Source: Opitutia bacterium (GTDB taxonomy: Bacteria > Verrucomicrobiota > Verrucomicrobiia > Opitutales > Opitutaceae). Taken from it: 37,726 nt of DNA. The notes under the pieces were generated by a model. The model did not search any database and was not told the origin of the DNA. It worked only from the letters and a program-made list of their open reading frames with translations. Of the stretch, positions 2,299-28,628 are shown in pieces (the stretch's first letter is position 1; the number at the start of each line of letters is the position of its first letter). A program made the position numbers and the translations under genes. The DNA is taken from assembly GCA_025360615.1 (NCBI GenBank), contig JANYBX010000517.1:1-37726 (forward strand), in the 5' to 3' direction.

Positions 2299-4875
2299 TT
2301 ACGGCCGCACCACGAGTTGCGTGCGCTGCTCTTTCTTGAAATATTTTCCGGCAAACTTCGCGAGGTCGGCGATGGTCACCGCGTCGATCTTCGCGTCGTA
2401 GTTTCGCCACGCGTTCAGCGGCTGGCCTTGGAGCGTGTTCAACGTCGCCTGCAACGCACGCGATGAATTGGTCTGCATCGACTGGCGCTGGCCGGCCTTG
2501 AGCCGCGCCTGACAGCGGCGCAGCTCGATCTGCTCGACGCCGCCTGCCTGCACGCGCGCGATCTCCGCGTCGATCTCGGCGAGCACTTCGCCTTCCTTGC
2601 CCGGCTGCGTGCCGGCGAAAAAATAAAACATGCCCGTGTCGAGCCCGAGCACGCGGCCCGAGCGCACGAAATAGGCGAGGCCCTTTTCCTCGCGCACGCG
2701 CTCGAAAAGCCGCGATGCCATGCCGCTGAACAACTCGTCGGCCACTTCGCCCACGTAGTAATCCGGCGCGTGAACGCGCGTGCCGGGAAACGCCTGCAAC
2801 ACCACCGCCTGCTCGCGCGGTTGCTTTTCCACGAAGTCTCCGGGCTCCGCCGGCAGGGAGCCAGCCAGGCCGGCGAAACTGACGGCGCGGGGCGCCGCGG
2901 TTTTCGGCAGCTTCGCGAGAAACGCCTTCAGTTTCGGCACCAGTTTCTTCGCGTCGAAATCGCCCGCGACAGCGAGCACCACGTTCGGCCCGACAAAGAG
3001 CCGCCGGTGCAGCGCCCGCAGCGCGGCGGGCGTGAGCGCTTTCACCCCGGCCTCGTCGCCACTGGCGTCGAGCGCGAGGGGATGGATGCCGAAGAATTTT
3101 TTCCGCAGGAGCTTTCGGGCGAGCGTCACCACGTCGTCGTTGTCCTGCGCGAGCGCGGCGACCTGCGCGTCGCGCTCGTGGGCGAATGTCGTCGGCTTGA
3201 ACGCGGGCGCGAGCACGGCGTCGGCGATCACGGCGAGCGCGCGATCCGCATCCGGCGGGAGCACTTCGGCGGCGACGCCCAGGCTGTTGTTGCCCGCGAG
3301 GGGGTGAAACGAGCCGCCCACTTCCTCGATGAATTGCGCGACTTGCGCGGCGCTGCGTTTGCCGGCGTCTTTCGTGAGCATCGTGCTAAGCAACGACGTC
3401 GCCCCGCGGTGTCCGTTTTCCTCGAAGAGCACGCCGCCGTTGACCGCGAGTCGGAAGTGCAGGTTCGGCAGGTGCCGATCGATCTGCAGGAGGAGGCGCG
3501 CGCCGTTCGGCAGTTTGATTTCCTCGAAATCGGGCGTGGTTGTCCGGGCCTCTTCCGGCGCGATCACGGTCATCGCGGCGGCCGTGGGATTGAGTGAAAT
3601 CGAGGTGAGCCGCGCCGGCAGGAGATAAGTTTTCAACACCCGGCTCAGGCCGGCCGGAGTGACGGCGCGCAACTGTTCGAAATACGAGCGACTGTAGTCG
3701 AGATCGCCCACGACGACTTCCGCCGCACCGAGACGCGAGGCTTGGCCGCTCATCGTTTTGCGCGTGTTGATTTCGCCGACGACGACTTGGCGCAGGGCTT
3801 TTTTGAGCTGCGCGGGCGTGAAACCTTTCGTCGCGCAGCGCGCGAGCGTGCGCTCGATGGCGGCGATGGCGGCGGGGCGTTTGTCGGCATCAGCCGTGTA
3901 GCCGACGCAGAATAGGCCGCTGCTGCCGGGATTCCAACTCGACGCGTCGATGCTGTGCACGAGATCCGCTTTCTCGCGAACTTCCTGCCAGAGCACCGAG
4001 CTGTCGCCGCCGCCGAGCACGGTGGCGAGCAAGTCGAGCATCGGAGCATCGGCGTGCGTGAGGCCGGGGATCGGCCAGACGAGCGCGCCACGGGAGAGTT
4101 CGACATCCTCGAAGCGATGAAGAGCGCGCGGGGCGAGTTGCAACGGCTCGGCCGGCACGAGCACGGGGGCGAGGCGCACGCGCGGCGCAGCGCCGAAATG
4201 CGTCTCGACGGAGGCGCGCGTCGCCGCGAGGTCGATGTCGCCGACGATGACGACGACGAGGTTGTTCGGCACGTAGCGCGCGCGGTAGTAGTTGAAGAGA
4301 TCGTCACGCGTGACGGTCGAGAACACATCGCGGTGCCCGATGATCGGCTGGCGATACGGGTGCTCGCGAAACGCGGTCGAGAACAGCGCGTCCCAGAGGC
4401 GACTGTCGGGATCGTCCTTCGTCATCGCGATCTCGCGGAGGATCACATCTTTTTCCTTCGCGGCCTCGTCGGCGGGGAAAGTGGAATGCAGCACCGCGTC
4501 GGCGAGCAGGTCGATGGCGACGGCGGCGTGTTCGCTCGGCAAGTCGATGTAGTAAACCGTGCGGTCGAAGGTGGTGTAGGCGTTAATGTAGCCGCCGTGG
4601 GCCTGCACGGTCGCGGAGATGTCGCGGCCCGCGCGGCGCTCGGTGCCCTTAAAAAGCATGTGCTCGACGTAATGCGAGAGGCCCGCACCGAGGCAGCTGT
4701 CCTCGTGGATGCTGCCGGTTTTTACCCAGACTTGCACGGAGGCGAGCGCGGCGGAACGGTCGGGCTTGAGGATGAGCGTGAGGCCGTTGGACAGCACGGT
4801 GCGCTCGACGGGCTCGCGCCAAAACGGATCAAGGAGGCGGAGGTCGGCGGCGAGCGAGGCGGTGGGTTTCGGCAT
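2299..4875 (-). CDS. M16 family zinc metallopeptidase (two-domain, pitrilysin/PqqL-like)
   Basis: The 858-residue product has the duplicated M16 fold. The N-terminal half has the inverted zinc motif HYVEH (residues 68-72) and the third ligand Glu148 in ILREIAM, 76 residues later, so it should be catalytically competent. The substrate-shaping GGYINAYTTFDRTVYY segment follows the motif. The second half (from about residue 450, KLPNGARLLLQ) repeats the fold without a zinc motif, as expected for the partner domain that closes the chamber. I see no obvious signal peptide. ATG 4875 is preferred over an in-frame TTG at 4890. The gene lies 60 bp downstream of the Minf_1886 gene on the same strand, with a 7-bp hairpin between them. 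Such proteins degrade peptides; the substrate here is unknown. Confidence 0.9.
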   Translation of the reverse strand: MPKPTASLAADLRLLDPFWREPVERTVLSNGLTLILKPDRSAALASVQVWVKTGSIHEDSCLGAGLSHYVEHMLFKGTERRAGRDISATVQAHGGYINAYTTFDRTVYYIDLPSEHAAVAIDLLADAVLHSTFPADEAAKEKDVILREIAMTKDDPDSRLWDALFSTAFREHPYRQPIIGHRDVFSTVTRDDLFNYYRARYVPNNLVVVIVGDIDLAATRASVETHFGAAPRVRLAPVLVPAEPLQLAPRALHRFEDVELSRGALVWPIPGLTHADAPMLDLLATVLGGGDSSVLWQEVREKADLVHSIDASSWNPGSSGLFCVGYTADADKRPAAIAAIERTLARCATKGFTPAQLKKALRQVVVGEINTRKTMSGQASRLGAAEVVVGDLDYSRSYFEQLRAVTPAGLSRVLKTYLLPARLTSISLNPTAAAMTVIAPEEARTTTPDFEEIKLPNGARLLLQIDRHLPNLHFRLAVNGGVLFEENGHRGATSLLSTMLTKDAGKRSAAQVAQFIEEVGGSFHPLAGNNSLGVAAEVLPPDADRALAVIADAVLAPAFKPTTFAHERDAQVAALAQDNDDVVTLARKLLRKKFFGIHPLALDASGDEAGVKALTPAALRALHRRLFVGPNVVLAVAGDFDAKKLVPKLKAFLAKLPKTAAPRAVSFAGLAGSLPAEPGDFVEKQPREQAVVLQAFPGTRVHAPDYYVGEVADELFSGMASRLFERVREEKGLAYFVRSGRVLGLDTGMFYFFAGTQPGKEGEVLAEIDAEIARVQAGGVEQIELRRCQARLKAGQRQSMQTNSSRALQATLNTLQGQPLNAWRNYDAKIDAVTIADLAKFAGKYFKKEQRTQLVVRP

Positions 4876-4913
4876 GGAAAGACGGTGCAAGGGAATTCAC
4901 GGGACGCAACGGA

Positions 4914-4930
4914 GCCGGTCGGCGACCGGC
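4914..4930. repeat. Perfect hairpin between two minus-strand genes
   Basis: GCCGGTC-GGC-GACCGGC is a 7-bp perfect stem with a 3-base loop, just after the stop of the Minf_1886 gene. No T-run follows in the direction of transcription, so it could be an mRNA processing or stabilising hairpin rather than a terminator. Confidence 0.5.
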
Positions 4931-4935
4931 CCGGC

Positions 4936-5355
4936 TTACTTCTCCAGCGTGGCCGCGCGGCGCTTCGCGGGCTGGAATGGTTTCACAAACGCGTCGTCAA
5001 ACGTGTAAACGTCGGCGAAATCCTCGGGGCGGTCGCTCTCGGTTTTGGAAAACACGTTATACTCGATCAGGTTGAAAACGATGTCGCCGAAATCGCGGCA
5101 ACGCTTCACTCCCCAGGCGTTGAGCACGGTTTTCGTGAGCGGGCCGTATTGCTCGAGCGCGTGGGCGCGCAGCCCTTGGAGCAGCTCGGGACCGGATACA
5201 TGACGGGAGCGCTCGGCCCGGGCGGCCTCCTTCTTGCGAATCTCCTTCACCGTGTGGTCGAGGCCATGCCGCACAAAATCGTAGGCTTTTTTGTCGAAGC
5301 GCGCGTCTTCCTTGCAGATCAGTGAAACTATTTCGGCAAAATCCGGGTCTTGCAT
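4936..5355 (-). CDS. Minf_1886 family protein
   Basis: The 139-residue product resembles the conserved family named after Methylacidiphilum Minf_1886, which is common in Verrucomicrobiota and Planctomycetota and has no assigned function. Recognisable stretches are DARFDKKAYDFVRHGLDHT near the N-terminus, and GPLTKTVLNAWGV followed by DFGDIVFNLIEY in the C-terminal half. It has no signal peptide or membrane segment, so it is probably cytosolic. ATG 5355 is chosen because family similarity starts at MQDPDFAEIV; an upstream in-frame start at 5379 would add eight unconvincing residues. It may be cotranscribed with the M16 peptidase downstream. Its upstream side faces the Fur-like gene divergently across about 155 bp. 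Confidence 0.85.
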   Translation of the reverse strand: MQDPDFAEIVSLICKEDARFDKKAYDFVRHGLDHTVKEIRKKEAARAERSRHVSGPELLQGLRAHALEQYGPLTKTVLNAWGVKRCRDFGDIVFNLIEYNVFSKTESDRPEDFADVYTFDDAFVKPFQPAKRRAATLEK

Positions 5356-5510
5356 GTGGTGGCGGGAAAGTAGGCACACCCGTTGGCTGCGCGCAATCCT
5401 GAGGTCGCGTCCGGCCGGAATGCCAACTCTTTCCCTGAAAATCGCTGGCGCACCGGTATTGCGCTCGTAAAATTACTCTGAACCATGATTGTTACAAACA
5501 GGCTCCCTCA

Positions 5511-6044
5511 ATGATCGCTTCCACCCAAACCAATTCTCCGCTGGCCGCTGGTCAATCCACTGGTCTCAGCCCGATCGAGTCCGCTTGCATCAAACTCAAG
5601 GCCGCCGGGTTGCGCATCACCCAGCCGCGCCTCGCCATCCTCGCCGATCTGATCAAGCGAAACCAACCCACCAGCATCGAGCAGCTCCACGAGGAACTCG
5701 GCAGCGAAGCCTGCGACTTGGTGACAGTCTATCGCTGCATGGGCGCCTTTGAGGAAATCGGCCTCGTGCGCCGCAGTTTCTACCATAACGGCACCAGCCT
5801 CTACGCCATTAATTTGGGCGAGCCCACCCGCTACCACGTCGTTTCCAAAGCCACAAAGGAAGTCGAGGAACTCGATGCCGAGACCTCCGCCGAGCTACGC
5901 GGCACCCTGCACTCCATCGAGGAGAAATTGCGCGCGAAGGGCTACACGGCCGTCAGCCATATCGCCGAGTTTTTCGGCACTCCGCCCACCGCTGCCGGCA
6001 ACCGCGTGACCGCGGGCTCCGAGGCCATCCCGGCGTCGGAGTAA
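5511..6044 (+). CDS. Fur/PerR-family transcriptional regulator, metal ligands degenerate
   Basis: The 177-residue product has the Fur winged helix: LKAAGLRITQPRLAILADLI, then SIEQLHEEL and the recognition-helix region DLVTVYRCMGAFEEIGLVRR (residues about 28-90). A dimerisation-like domain follows. Where Fur, Zur and PerR have an HHHH-x2-CxxC segment, this protein reads TRYHVVSKATKEVEEL (about 106-121), with only His109. The C-terminal CxxC is absent too. SHIAEFFG (149-156) keeps the late His. It may therefore sense something other than a zinc-stabilised metal signal, or bind metal differently. The direct upstream region has TTACAAACAGG at 5492-5502, identical to the flank of the palindrome at 1100-1120, so autoregulation through that motif is conceivable. 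The N-terminal 20 residues and C-terminal 20 residues look like flexible extensions. Confidence 0.85.
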   Translation: MIASTQTNSPLAAGQSTGLSPIESACIKLKAAGLRITQPRLAILADLIKRNQPTSIEQLHEELGSEACDLVTVYRCMGAFEEIGLVRRSFYHNGTSLYAINLGEPTRYHVVSKATKEVEELDAETSAELRGTLHSIEEKLRAKGYTAVSHIAEFFGTPPTAAGNRVTAGSEAIPASE

Positions 6045-26816: not shown

Positions 26817-27263
26817 ATGATCAACTACAGCGCTCCCGACCTCACTCAACATCCGCCGCGCAGCGTCCGCGTGCGCATCGGCGGCTATGCCCACCTCGCC
26901 CGCCTGCTCGACAAAGCCCGCGCTGAACTCGCCGGCAAGCAAGGGGCGTATCACTACAACTGCCCGCTCGATCAGCTCCTCTTCGCTTTCACCGGGATCG
27001 GCCACGAGGAGATGTTGGCCACGATCAAGACCGGCAAGAGCGACATCGAGATTCTGGAGTGGATCGGCACGCAAACAAAACGGCCGCCCCACGAAGTCGC
27101 CGCCTGGTCGGCTTGGATGGAATTACGCGGTCCCGGCGGCGCGGAAGGCCACGAGTGGATCGCCAGCGTGATCAAGGAGAACAAATCCGCGCGCGACGAC
27201 ATCCGCTCTTTCGCCGACCTGCTCGATCTCGACGACTACATCAGCTACGGTGGCAAAGCTTGA
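26817..27263 (+). CDS. DUF5069 domain-containing protein
   Basis: The 148-residue product matches DUF5069 over its whole length: PPRSVRVRIGGYAHLARLLDKARAELAGK near the start, then GAYHYNCPLDQLLFAFTGI, and EILEWIGTQTKRPPHEVAAWSAWME. The family is widespread in Verrucomicrobiota and Planctomycetota with unknown function; it has no signal peptide, so a cytosolic protein is expected. The gene stands alone and ends in a clear terminator. An A-rich, purine-rich leader precedes the ATG, with AAGAAAG about 13 bases upstream serving at best as a weak ribosome binding site. Confidence 0.9.
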   Translation: MINYSAPDLTQHPPRSVRVRIGGYAHLARLLDKARAELAGKQGAYHYNCPLDQLLFAFTGIGHEEMLATIKTGKSDIEILEWIGTQTKRPPHEVAAWSAWMELRGPGGAEGHEWIASVIKENKSARDDIRSFADLLDLDDYISYGGKA

Positions 27264-27478: not shown

Positions 27479-27853
27479 CTACAGCTCTGTATACTTCTCC
27501 GCGCGCCCCCGCGCTTTCTCGACCGGATATTTTTTCGCGTTCGCCGCCATCTTCGCCTCGATCGCCGCCGCCACGTCCAGCCCCGTCATGTTGGCAAACT
27601 CCAGCGCGTAGATCACCACGTCCGCGAGCTCCTCGGCGATCTTCAGCCGCTTCGCCGGATCGTTGACGACGGCGCGCGATTCTTCCGGTGTCGCCCAGAG
27701 AAAATGCTCCATCAGTTCGCCCGCCTCGGCGGCGAGGGCCATGCTCAGGTTTTTCGGCGCGTGAAACTGCTCCCAATCCCGCTCCCGCGCGAAGGCGAGC
27801 ACGCGCGTTTTCAGTTCGGCCAGAGTCGTGATGGAATCGGTGAGTGCAGCCAT
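27479..27853 (-). CDS. MazG-like nucleotide pyrophosphohydrolase
   Basis: The 124-residue all-alpha protein has the MazG/dCTPase motif: ALAAEAGELMEHFLW supplies the first pair of acidic metal ligands and KIAEELADVVIYALEFAN the second (EExxD type). It hydrolyses non-canonical or excess nucleoside triphosphates to monophosphate and pyrophosphate; RS21-C6/dCTPase-like members of this size favour dCTP analogues, but the substrate is not certain here. ATG 27853 is chosen because similarity begins at MAALTDSITTLAELK; the upstream in-frame extension is not conserved in style. Its start faces the sigma-54-type promoter of the next gene, and a dyad lies 26 bp from the start codon. Confidence 0.88.
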   Translation of the reverse strand: MAALTDSITTLAELKTRVLAFARERDWEQFHAPKNLSMALAAEAGELMEHFLWATPEESRAVVNDPAKRLKIAEELADVVIYALEFANMTGLDVAAAIEAKMAANAKKYPVEKARGRAEKYTEL

Positions 27854-27878: not shown

Positions 27879-27898
27879 CCGTCACACAATCTTGACGG
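27879..27898. promoter_or_regulatory. Inverted repeat CCGTCA-N8-TGACGG
   Basis: A perfect 6-bp dyad with 8-bp spacer lies 18 bp before the sigma-54-type element, around -55 relative to its predicted start site, and 26 bp before the start of the divergent MazG-like gene. It could bind an enhancer-binding activator or a repressor of either gene. Confidence 0.55.
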
Positions 27899-27916
27899 TT
27901 GGAAAAAAATTTCGGC

Positions 27917-27933
27917 TTGGCACGCAGCCTGCA
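27917..27933 (+). promoter_or_regulatory. Sigma-54 (RpoN) promoter
   Basis: TTGGCACGCAGCCTGCA has the invariant GG and GC separated by exactly 10 bases and differs from the classical -24/-12 consensus (TTGGCACG-N4-TTGCA) at one place. The predicted start at about 27944 leaves a leader of about 15 bases before the ATG of the 45-codon gene. Confidence 0.8.
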
Positions 27934-27958
27934 TTTATCCTTCCATCCAATTGCTCTC

Positions 27959-28096
27959 ATGACCTCGGCACAAAAACATCTCCGCAGCCACGCCGGCGCT
28001 TCGTTTACGAAGGCCGTGCAACAATGCTGCGCCCAGATGCGCCCGGTCGTCTCCCATTGGAGCCAAAAAACGACCGGCACGGGCTTCCAAGCCTAA
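27959..28096 (+). CDS. Small protein of 45 residues downstream of the sigma-54 promoter
   Basis: The reading frame MTSAQKHLRSHAGAS...TGTGFQA begins at the first ATG after the predicted sigma-54 start site and ends before the Hsp20-like gene. About three quarters of its third codon positions are G or C, as in the surrounding genes, which favours real coding. It is basic and hydrophilic, with two adjacent cysteines (Cys23-Cys24) and no membrane segment. I recognise no family. No terminator is seen in the 124-bp gap to the Hsp20-like gene, so the two probably share the transcript. An alternative is a non-coding leader. Confidence 0.5.
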   Translation: MTSAQKHLRSHAGASFTKAVQQCCAQMRPVVSHWSQKTTGTGFQA

Positions 28097-28220
28097 ACCC
28101 TCCGAACCAACGGAAGCAGTTTAGACCCACGCGAAGCCCGGAGCCCACCAGCCCCAGGAAGCCACCGCTTTATTTCCTCCCCCTCCCTTTTTCCATTTTC
28201 CGTTTTTCCCTTTTCTTCCC

Positions 28221-28628
28221 ATGCACACGATGATCCACCCGTTCAGTCCCGCCAGTCTCACTCGCCCGTCGGAAGCTGCCACCATGCACCAATTCCGTCA
28301 GCCGAACTACGACTGCCGCGACCAGCCCGACGTCGTCAAACTGGCCGTCTATGTGCCGGGTGTGGACGCGGCGGGCGTGGACATCGAGGCCCGGGGTCCC
28401 GACCTCTTCATCACCGCGCGCAAAATCCATTTCGTGCGGGTGAACTGGCAGGCTGCCCACCTTGAGGGCGCGCAGCTCGACTATCAGCTCCGGCTGCGGC
28501 TCGGCCACACCTTCGACTACGCGTCGATGCAGGCCGAGATCCACGACGGCGTGCTGACCGTGACGCTGCCGAAACGGACGCACGCTTTTGGCGAAAGTGT
28601 CTCACCCTTCAAGCGCGCTGCGGCCTGA
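28221..28628 (+). CDS. Hsp20/alpha-crystallin-like protein
   Basis: The 135-residue product has a compact alpha-crystallin/CS-like beta sandwich from about residue 28 to 125: DVVKLAVYVPGVDAAGVDIEA, DLFITARK, then LDYQLRLRLGHTFDYASMQAEI and DGVLTVTLPKR. Small heat-shock proteins hold unfolding proteins; this one is short and lacks the usual A-x-x-x-n-GvL-t-i-x-P spacing in exact form, so chaperone activity is inferred. The first ATG, 28221, is used; ATGs at 28230 and 28284 are also in frame, the last giving MHQFRQPNYDC. No independent promoter is clear, and the sigma-54 promoter upstream of the 45-codon gene may drive it. A bidirectional terminator follows. Confidence 0.8.
   Translation: MHTMIHPFSPASLTRPSEAATMHQFRQPNYDCRDQPDVVKLAVYVPGVDAAGVDIEARGPDLFITARKIHFVRVNWQAAHLEGAQLDYQLRLRLGHTFDYASMQAEIHDGVLTVTLPKRTHAFGESVSPFKRAAA

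Follow-up and report, generated by a model that had tools for sequence, protein, structure and literature searches.

A covarying leader RNA with an open upstream reading frame lies between a sigma-54-type promoter and an Hsp20-like gene in Opitutaceae

In E. coli the translation of the upstream ORF uof is coupled to the expression of fur (PMC11550727). Leader-peptide attenuators are known as well, among them those of whiB7/wblC and of the trp type (PMC11550727). The small heat-shock protein IbpA represses itself via the 5' UTR of ibpA (PMC10474464). Furthermore, a study on predicted sigma-54 regulons lists the IbpA-type COG0071 as a member, with a reported enrichment in Planctomycetota and Bacteroidota (PMC12316311).

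Here we analyzed a leader in front of an Hsp20-like gene of the Opitutaceae. The window, i.e. the whole stretch of DNA under analysis, is 37,726 nt long. We consider it moderately probable that a sigma-54-driven hsp20 mRNA is made from this locus, in which a translated upstream ORF (uORF) within a structured leader would control hsp20 in cis. The unit has three parts downstream of its regulatory region:

27957-28162, plus strand: structured leader RNA, covariance model R1 with 206 positions and 46 pairs, recognized by covariation
27959-28096, plus strand: upstream ORF of 45 codons, presumed translated from its open frame and 3n lengths, start and stop within the RNA fold
28221-28628, plus strand: Hsp20-like gene (PF00011) of 135 aa, Opitutaceae subfamily starting MHTIIHP

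The leader RNA is composed of the following helices, which were derived from single-sequence folds and from the alignment:

27959-27965, plus strand: 5' arm of P1, carries the start codon of the uORF; partner 28044-28050 in the alignment helices and in single-sequence folds
28044-28050, plus strand: 3' arm of P1 (CGGTCGT), pairs with 27959-27965
27977-27988, plus strand: 5' arm of P2 (CATCT, CGCAGC), pairs with 28026-28039
28026-28039, plus strand: 3' arm of P2 (GCTGCG, AGATG), pairs with 27977-27988
27992-28019, plus strand: P3/P4 hairpin with the tip CTTCG-NNNA-CGAAG, from folds and alignment
28080-28087, plus strand: 5' arm of P6 (CGGGCTTC), last uORF codons, pairs with 28133-28140, 87.6% paired
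28133-28140, plus strand: 3' arm of P6 (GAAGCCCG), pairs with 28080-28087
28093-28124, plus strand: P7 hairpin CTAAA..TCCG..CGGA..TTTAG with the uORF stop codon, from alignment helices
28156-28178, plus strand: P9 hairpin AGGAA..TTTCCT with a Shine-Dalgarno (SD)-like motif, weak in the window copy, GAGG..CCUC in relatives

Single-sequence folds of diverged leaders followed a shared plan, namely an arm made of P1-P4 and then P6 enclosing P7. The outer stem of the P1-P4 arm begins at the start codon, and P6 joins the last uORF codons to the segment behind the stop. The leader folds had a stability of about -67 to -98 kcal/mol, and P1 and a competing pairing of the same CCGGTC segment are both candidates.

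The pairing was tested on an alignment that was built without knowledge of the structure, the structure itself being taken from the single-sequence folds. In this alignment 85.5% of the cells were paired, and changes on both sides were found in 25 of the 46 pairs as compared to 12.9±1.9 in shuffles. The covariation score was 0.120 versus 0.091±0.003 for shuffled and at most 0.054 for slid partners. On the tree, 25.7 compensatory double changes were counted. Permuted partners gave 2.6±1.6, with a maximum of 8.3 among 200 permutations, and slid partners did not exceed 4.3. Since the structure was obtained by folding sequences that belong to the set, the proportion of paired cells is favoured, and counting events against permuted partners is a more independent test. 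Uncorrected mutual information was dominated by shared ancestry, and the tree-aware event count was therefore used instead. When RNAalifold was applied to a rough MAFFT alignment, hardly any consensus emerged because the P1 arms and the loop lengths shift.

Individual helices illustrate these changes. In P2, 30 sequences have A-U and 21 have G-C at one pair, and at another 48 have G-C and 7 have A-U; one pair of P7 is A-U in 64 versus G-C in 4 sequences. In leader L034 the tip of P3/P4 reads CTTCT-TGTA-AGAAG, with the pair retained and two amino acids altered. At P9 many relatives carry a GAGG..CCUC hairpin with changing arms, which contains the only SD-like motif; its folding z averages only -0.5, and energy alone does not establish this helix. 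The motif is mostly located 20-30 nt 5' of the hsp20 ATG and is missing within 30 nt in 28 of 71 leaders.

The R1 model detected the RNA in the host genome with E = 5e-56, a value to which the window copy contributes as part of the model's own alignment. No family of Rfam 15, including the ROSE and fourU thermometers, matched the window or eight relatives at permissive thresholds. The leader is a new structured-RNA family outside Rfam 15.

The coordinates of the 45-codon ORF in the original prediction fit our results, with the ATG at 27959 and the stop at 28094-28096. Promoter, uORF and hsp20 form a unit that is conserved in Opitutaceae, as judged from 104 distinct leaders, i.e. the set after removal of duplicates. 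The uORF was compared in 100 of them, leaving out L041 and L050 (broken hsp20), L127 (contig end) and L051 (CTG start). Its length ranged from 43 to 50 codons. Not a single in-frame stop was present in the 4588 codons, as compared to 106 and 52 stops in frames +1 and +2, respectively. With a freely evolving segment, the tree should contain about 52 changes that create a stop; the leaves show none, and two to three occurred solely in randomly resolved inner nodes. Length differences in each of three uORF blocks were multiples of three in 71 of 71 sequences, while the lengths from the stop to the 3' arm of P6 were distributed over the residues 0, 1 and 2 with 22, 25 and 24 sequences. The ATG is invariant, yet its first base is paired in just 44 of 71.

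A first codon test on 25 sequences had let the uORF look non-coding. The resulting candidate, in which a non-coding RNA would contain an ORF by chance, was rejected on the basis of the tests of openness and length phase on 71-100 sequences. Judged by these evolutionary criteria, the uORF is read.

The amino acids behave differently from the frame. Changes in the uORF on the tree were spread almost evenly over the three codon positions (approximately 381, 398 and 391). The entropy by codon position was 0.99/0.97/0.98 in 24 and 1.07/1.05/0.98 in 100 uORF sequences versus 0.81/0.64/1.25 in hsp20, where the third position varies most. In the comparison of the window with L026, which is its nearest relative, pS was 0.17 and pN 0.10 for the uORF, and 0.48 and 0.13, respectively, for hsp20. 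Similarity in BLOSUM units per changed codon reached 0.25 in the uORF versus 0.22 in frame +1, the hsp20 control giving 0.62 versus 0.11. Thus the synonymous excess that marks purifying selection on amino acids, which is seen in hsp20 as positive control, was absent from the uORF. Searches for homologs of the peptide in Pfam and NCBIfam returned nothing meaningful. As far as these comparisons reach, the amino-acid sequence of the uORF is mostly free of detectable selection.

The original prediction had spoken of an unknown peptide partner and had named a lack of conservation of the peptide as a refutation. In relatives the frame is kept and the amino acids mostly are not; with no synonymous preference, a similarity signal not above that of the neighbouring frame and a strongly covarying RNA, the peptide partner was not borne out. 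We accordingly regard it as unlikely that the uORF encodes a functional small protein acting with Hsp20, the RNA structure being a secondary constraint. Such a protein would agree with the strictly kept frame, with an invariant Trp codon amid variable neighbours, and with a net charge of +3 to +9 in all peptides, 68 of 100 of which have no acidic residue at all. However, frame +1 is equally poor in acidic residues and nearly equal in similarity signal, pN is close to pS without any excess at the third position whereas hsp20 is under strong purifying selection, and compensatory pairs exchange the amino acids on both sides, e.g. Ser..Cys for Gly..Arg at the A-U/G-C pair of P2 found in 30 and 21 sequences. 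Since the frame is read and its amino acids are mostly free, a regulatory uORF fits better than a protein partner.

One codon of the uORF is an exception:

28058-28060, plus strand: uORF codon TGG (Trp), invariant in 100 of 100 intact uORFs, with varied neighbours

Some of the peptide may therefore be of importance. In known arrest peptides a single Trp is often required, and the uORF could be a nascent-chain sensor of this kind, in which a stall near the invariant Trp would switch P6/P7 and the expression of hsp20. The single invariant Trp, in phase and about 10-13 codons before the stop, would be in agreement with this, as would the stop codon embedded in P7. Nevertheless, the residues flanking the Trp vary widely and known arrest motifs are longer, which makes a sensor of this type quite unlikely in our view.

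The Hsp20-like protein scored 32.2 bits against Pfam PF00011 with a cut-off of 20.8, which upholds the domain identity first proposed, and the search with it also matched solved small heat-shock proteins. By scanning 84,980 species genomes 80 further loci were found, labelled as Opitutaceae, Opitutae, genera of Opitutaceae, or merely Verrucomicrobia or 'bacterium'. Strong matches in a class-wide sample were confined to Opitutaceae, and every R1 match in a phylum-wide sample was located within this family as well. A nucleotide profile found the leader 5' of 133 of 138 hsp20 loci. The five misses were the distant Hsp20 genes L052-L054, L149 near a contig end, and L222 with a weak match to the RNA model. 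Among 200 family genomes, the covariance model detected the RNA in 134, with one strong copy per genome; a second match in one genome was marginal (E = 9.5e-4). In all 30 loci examined hsp20 adjoined the RNA. That uORF and hsp20 stand side by side in many Opitutaceae genomes answers the earlier suggestion to look for the pair in relatives, and a sigma-54-type promoter driving a unit with an Hsp20-like gene, as originally proposed, is supported.

In L041 (genome G008) and L050 (genome G010) a stop or a frameshift interrupts hsp20, and the leader ORF is likewise not intact; this is natural decay of the whole unit.

The flanks of the unit were inspected in addition. A divergent gene for a MazG-like pyrophosphohydrolase (window 27482-27853, minus strand) could be recognised in 32 of the 61 relatives whose flanks are complete, and the neighbourhood is therefore partly conserved. 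A DUF5069 gene (window 26817-27263, plus strand) was found close to the unit at 48 of the 80 related loci. The convergent neighbour of the unit is an MFS transporter gene.

A trans-acting dual-function small RNA, merely situated in front of hsp20, would be expected to fold compactly from near the start site and to be conserved over its full length, as the leader does and is. Against this stand the single copy per genome with hsp20 adjacent in every case checked and the near-constant distance between the starts of uORF and hsp20 (mostly 211-233 nt across leaders). Furthermore, scanning the window revealed neither a terminator nor a sigma-70 promoter between uORF and hsp20, the lack of a terminator being a further argument against a separate RNA, and we judge this explanation very unlikely. 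Least likely of all is that Hsp20 represses translation by binding to the leader of its own mRNA, like E. coli IbpA on the ibpA 5' UTR, for which the strict co-occurrence of the Hsp20 subfamily with the leader and the IbpA precedent can be cited (PMC10474464), as IbpA control operates without a uORF (a term absent from that paper) and self-repression alone would leave the open frame unexplained.

The regulatory region in front of the leader contains three elements:

27917-27933, plus strand: -24/-12 (sigma-54-type) promoter TTGGCACGCAGCCTGCA, recurrent in homologous leaders
27881-27896, plus strand: upstream element GTCACACAATCTTGAC (consensus GTCACNCAATCTTCAC), candidate regulator site with fixed spacing in relatives
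27879-27898, no strand assigned: dyad CCGTCA-N8-TGACGG, present in the window, not kept as a dyad in relatives

In the window the promoter has the layout TTGGCACG-CAGC-CTGCA, and its gap to the ATG at 27959 is 25 bases. Transcription is predicted to start at approximately 27944, based on the GC position of the -12 element. The only exact occurrence of TTGGCACGNNNNNTGC in the host genome is this promoter. A score of at least 13 was required for acceptance and was reached at the matching position in 86 of 102 homologous leaders versus 4 of 1003 background windows used as controls; the match is therefore not due to chance. The consensus TTGGCACG-N4-TTGCW is satisfied, GG and GC are near-invariant across the 86 accepted sites, and with two exceptions these are located 22-29 bases 5' of the uORF ATG. 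Hence the nearly perfect -24/-12 promoter described earlier ahead of a tiny gene is present and recurs in relatives.

The element GTCACACAATCTTGAC stands 37 bp 5' of the TGG of the -24 element and is the only exact match in the host genome. A constant distance to -24 was found for the GTCACNCAATCTTCAC element in roughly 30 of 86 leaders, and it was absent from many other lineages among the homologous leaders compared. The second half of its close matches was TTCAC (23), TTGAC (5) or TTAAC (1). In most relatives the element resembles a direct repeat and not a dyad, and a Pho box was considered as a reading of this repeat. As to the dyad, which had been put forward as the site of an enhancer-binding activator, the sequence is really located at 27879-27898; its role as an activator site was not supported, since the dyad symmetry is not conserved and the site lies about 55 bases 5' of the predicted start. 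Enhancer sites usually sit farther from the start. The symmetry is largely an accident of the window copy, a variant of the GTCACNCAATCTTCAC element at its fixed position.

In the host bin (92.6% complete) rpoN was not found. In the relatives set, however, 50 of 57 genomes carry the gene, and an assembly gap is therefore likely. The host genome encodes six or seven enhancer-binding proteins, and the GAFTGA motif is present. Contigs 139 and 543 of the host genome G000 (L088 and L089) carry a pair of paralogous response regulators that contain sigma-54 activation domains, each preceding a membrane sensor with a HAMP-like region that resembles a histidine kinase. Both are candidates for the activator with no linkage to the hsp20 locus. 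Near the 80 related loci no gene for an enhancer-binding protein was found except in L191 of Opitutaceae bacterium EW11 (4695-5576), approximately 1.3 kb 3' of hsp20. It was not assigned as the activator, being the sole case among 80 loci and located past hsp20.

Taken together, we favour control of hsp20 by the translated leader in cis. One sigma-54-dependent mRNA would encode the Opitutaceae-specific small heat-shock protein, with a leader of approximately 200 nt that would itself be translated. Transcription would await an enhancer-binding protein acting on the RpoN holoenzyme. A ribosome initiating at the ATG in P1 and running to the stop in P7 would melt P1-P4 and P6, and the passage of the ribosome may be the purpose of the uORF. 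The melting could alter the access to the region in front of hsp20, where a small hairpin carries the sole SD-like sequence, and the output of hsp20 would depend in cis on the translational state of its leader. The distance or absence of the SD-like motif and the modest folding z of P9 speak against this last step. Since the fold and the open frame are kept while the encoded protein changes freely, it is probably the act of translating the uORF that controls the heat-shock gene. A broader reading is doubtful and is offered tentatively: the leader may represent a new dual-coded class in which a fold of about 46 pairs and translation in one frame are selected simultaneously in one RNA segment, with near-free amino acids except for a sensor Trp, and in which passage or stalling of the ribosome would report on translation or proteostasis and set Hsp20 on top of the sigma-54 activation.

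The leader adds a new RNA family that accompanies a chaperone gene one-to-one, in bacteria that have received little study. It offers a clean natural case in which selection appears to act on being translated and not on the product, and a caution that an apparently conserved 'small protein' of 45 residues can be a conserved RNA kept open for ribosomes. The unit of leader and hsp20 is a defined system for the coupling of chaperone synthesis to translation under sigma-54 control.

A limited literature search yielded no paper naming both Opitutaceae and sigma-54, and in the available parts of PMC11550727, PMC10474464 and PMC12316311, the last of which treats sigma-54 chaperone promoters, no description of the leader was found; neither is a proof of novelty. 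With the RNA thermometers ROSE and fourU the leader shares its position as a structured 5' leader of hsp20 and an SD-like GAGG that can pair in a small hairpin. However, it matches no Rfam family, is far larger and very stable, and holds an ORF that is presumably translated. The self-repression of IbpA likewise regulates a bacterial small heat-shock protein post-transcriptionally via its leader, but in another phylum and with no uORF reported. Leader-peptide attenuators similarly place a translated short ORF within alternative RNA folds ahead of a gene, whereas the Opitutaceae leader has no intrinsic terminator in the window, no regulatory codon run and no conserved peptide. As in uof-fur, a short ORF lies directly 5' of the gene; there its translation sets the downstream gene, a coupling that we infer for the Opitutaceae leader. 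The latter differs from uof-fur by a covarying fold of approximately 200 nt over the uORF, by hsp20 as the downstream gene, and by its sigma-54-type promoter.
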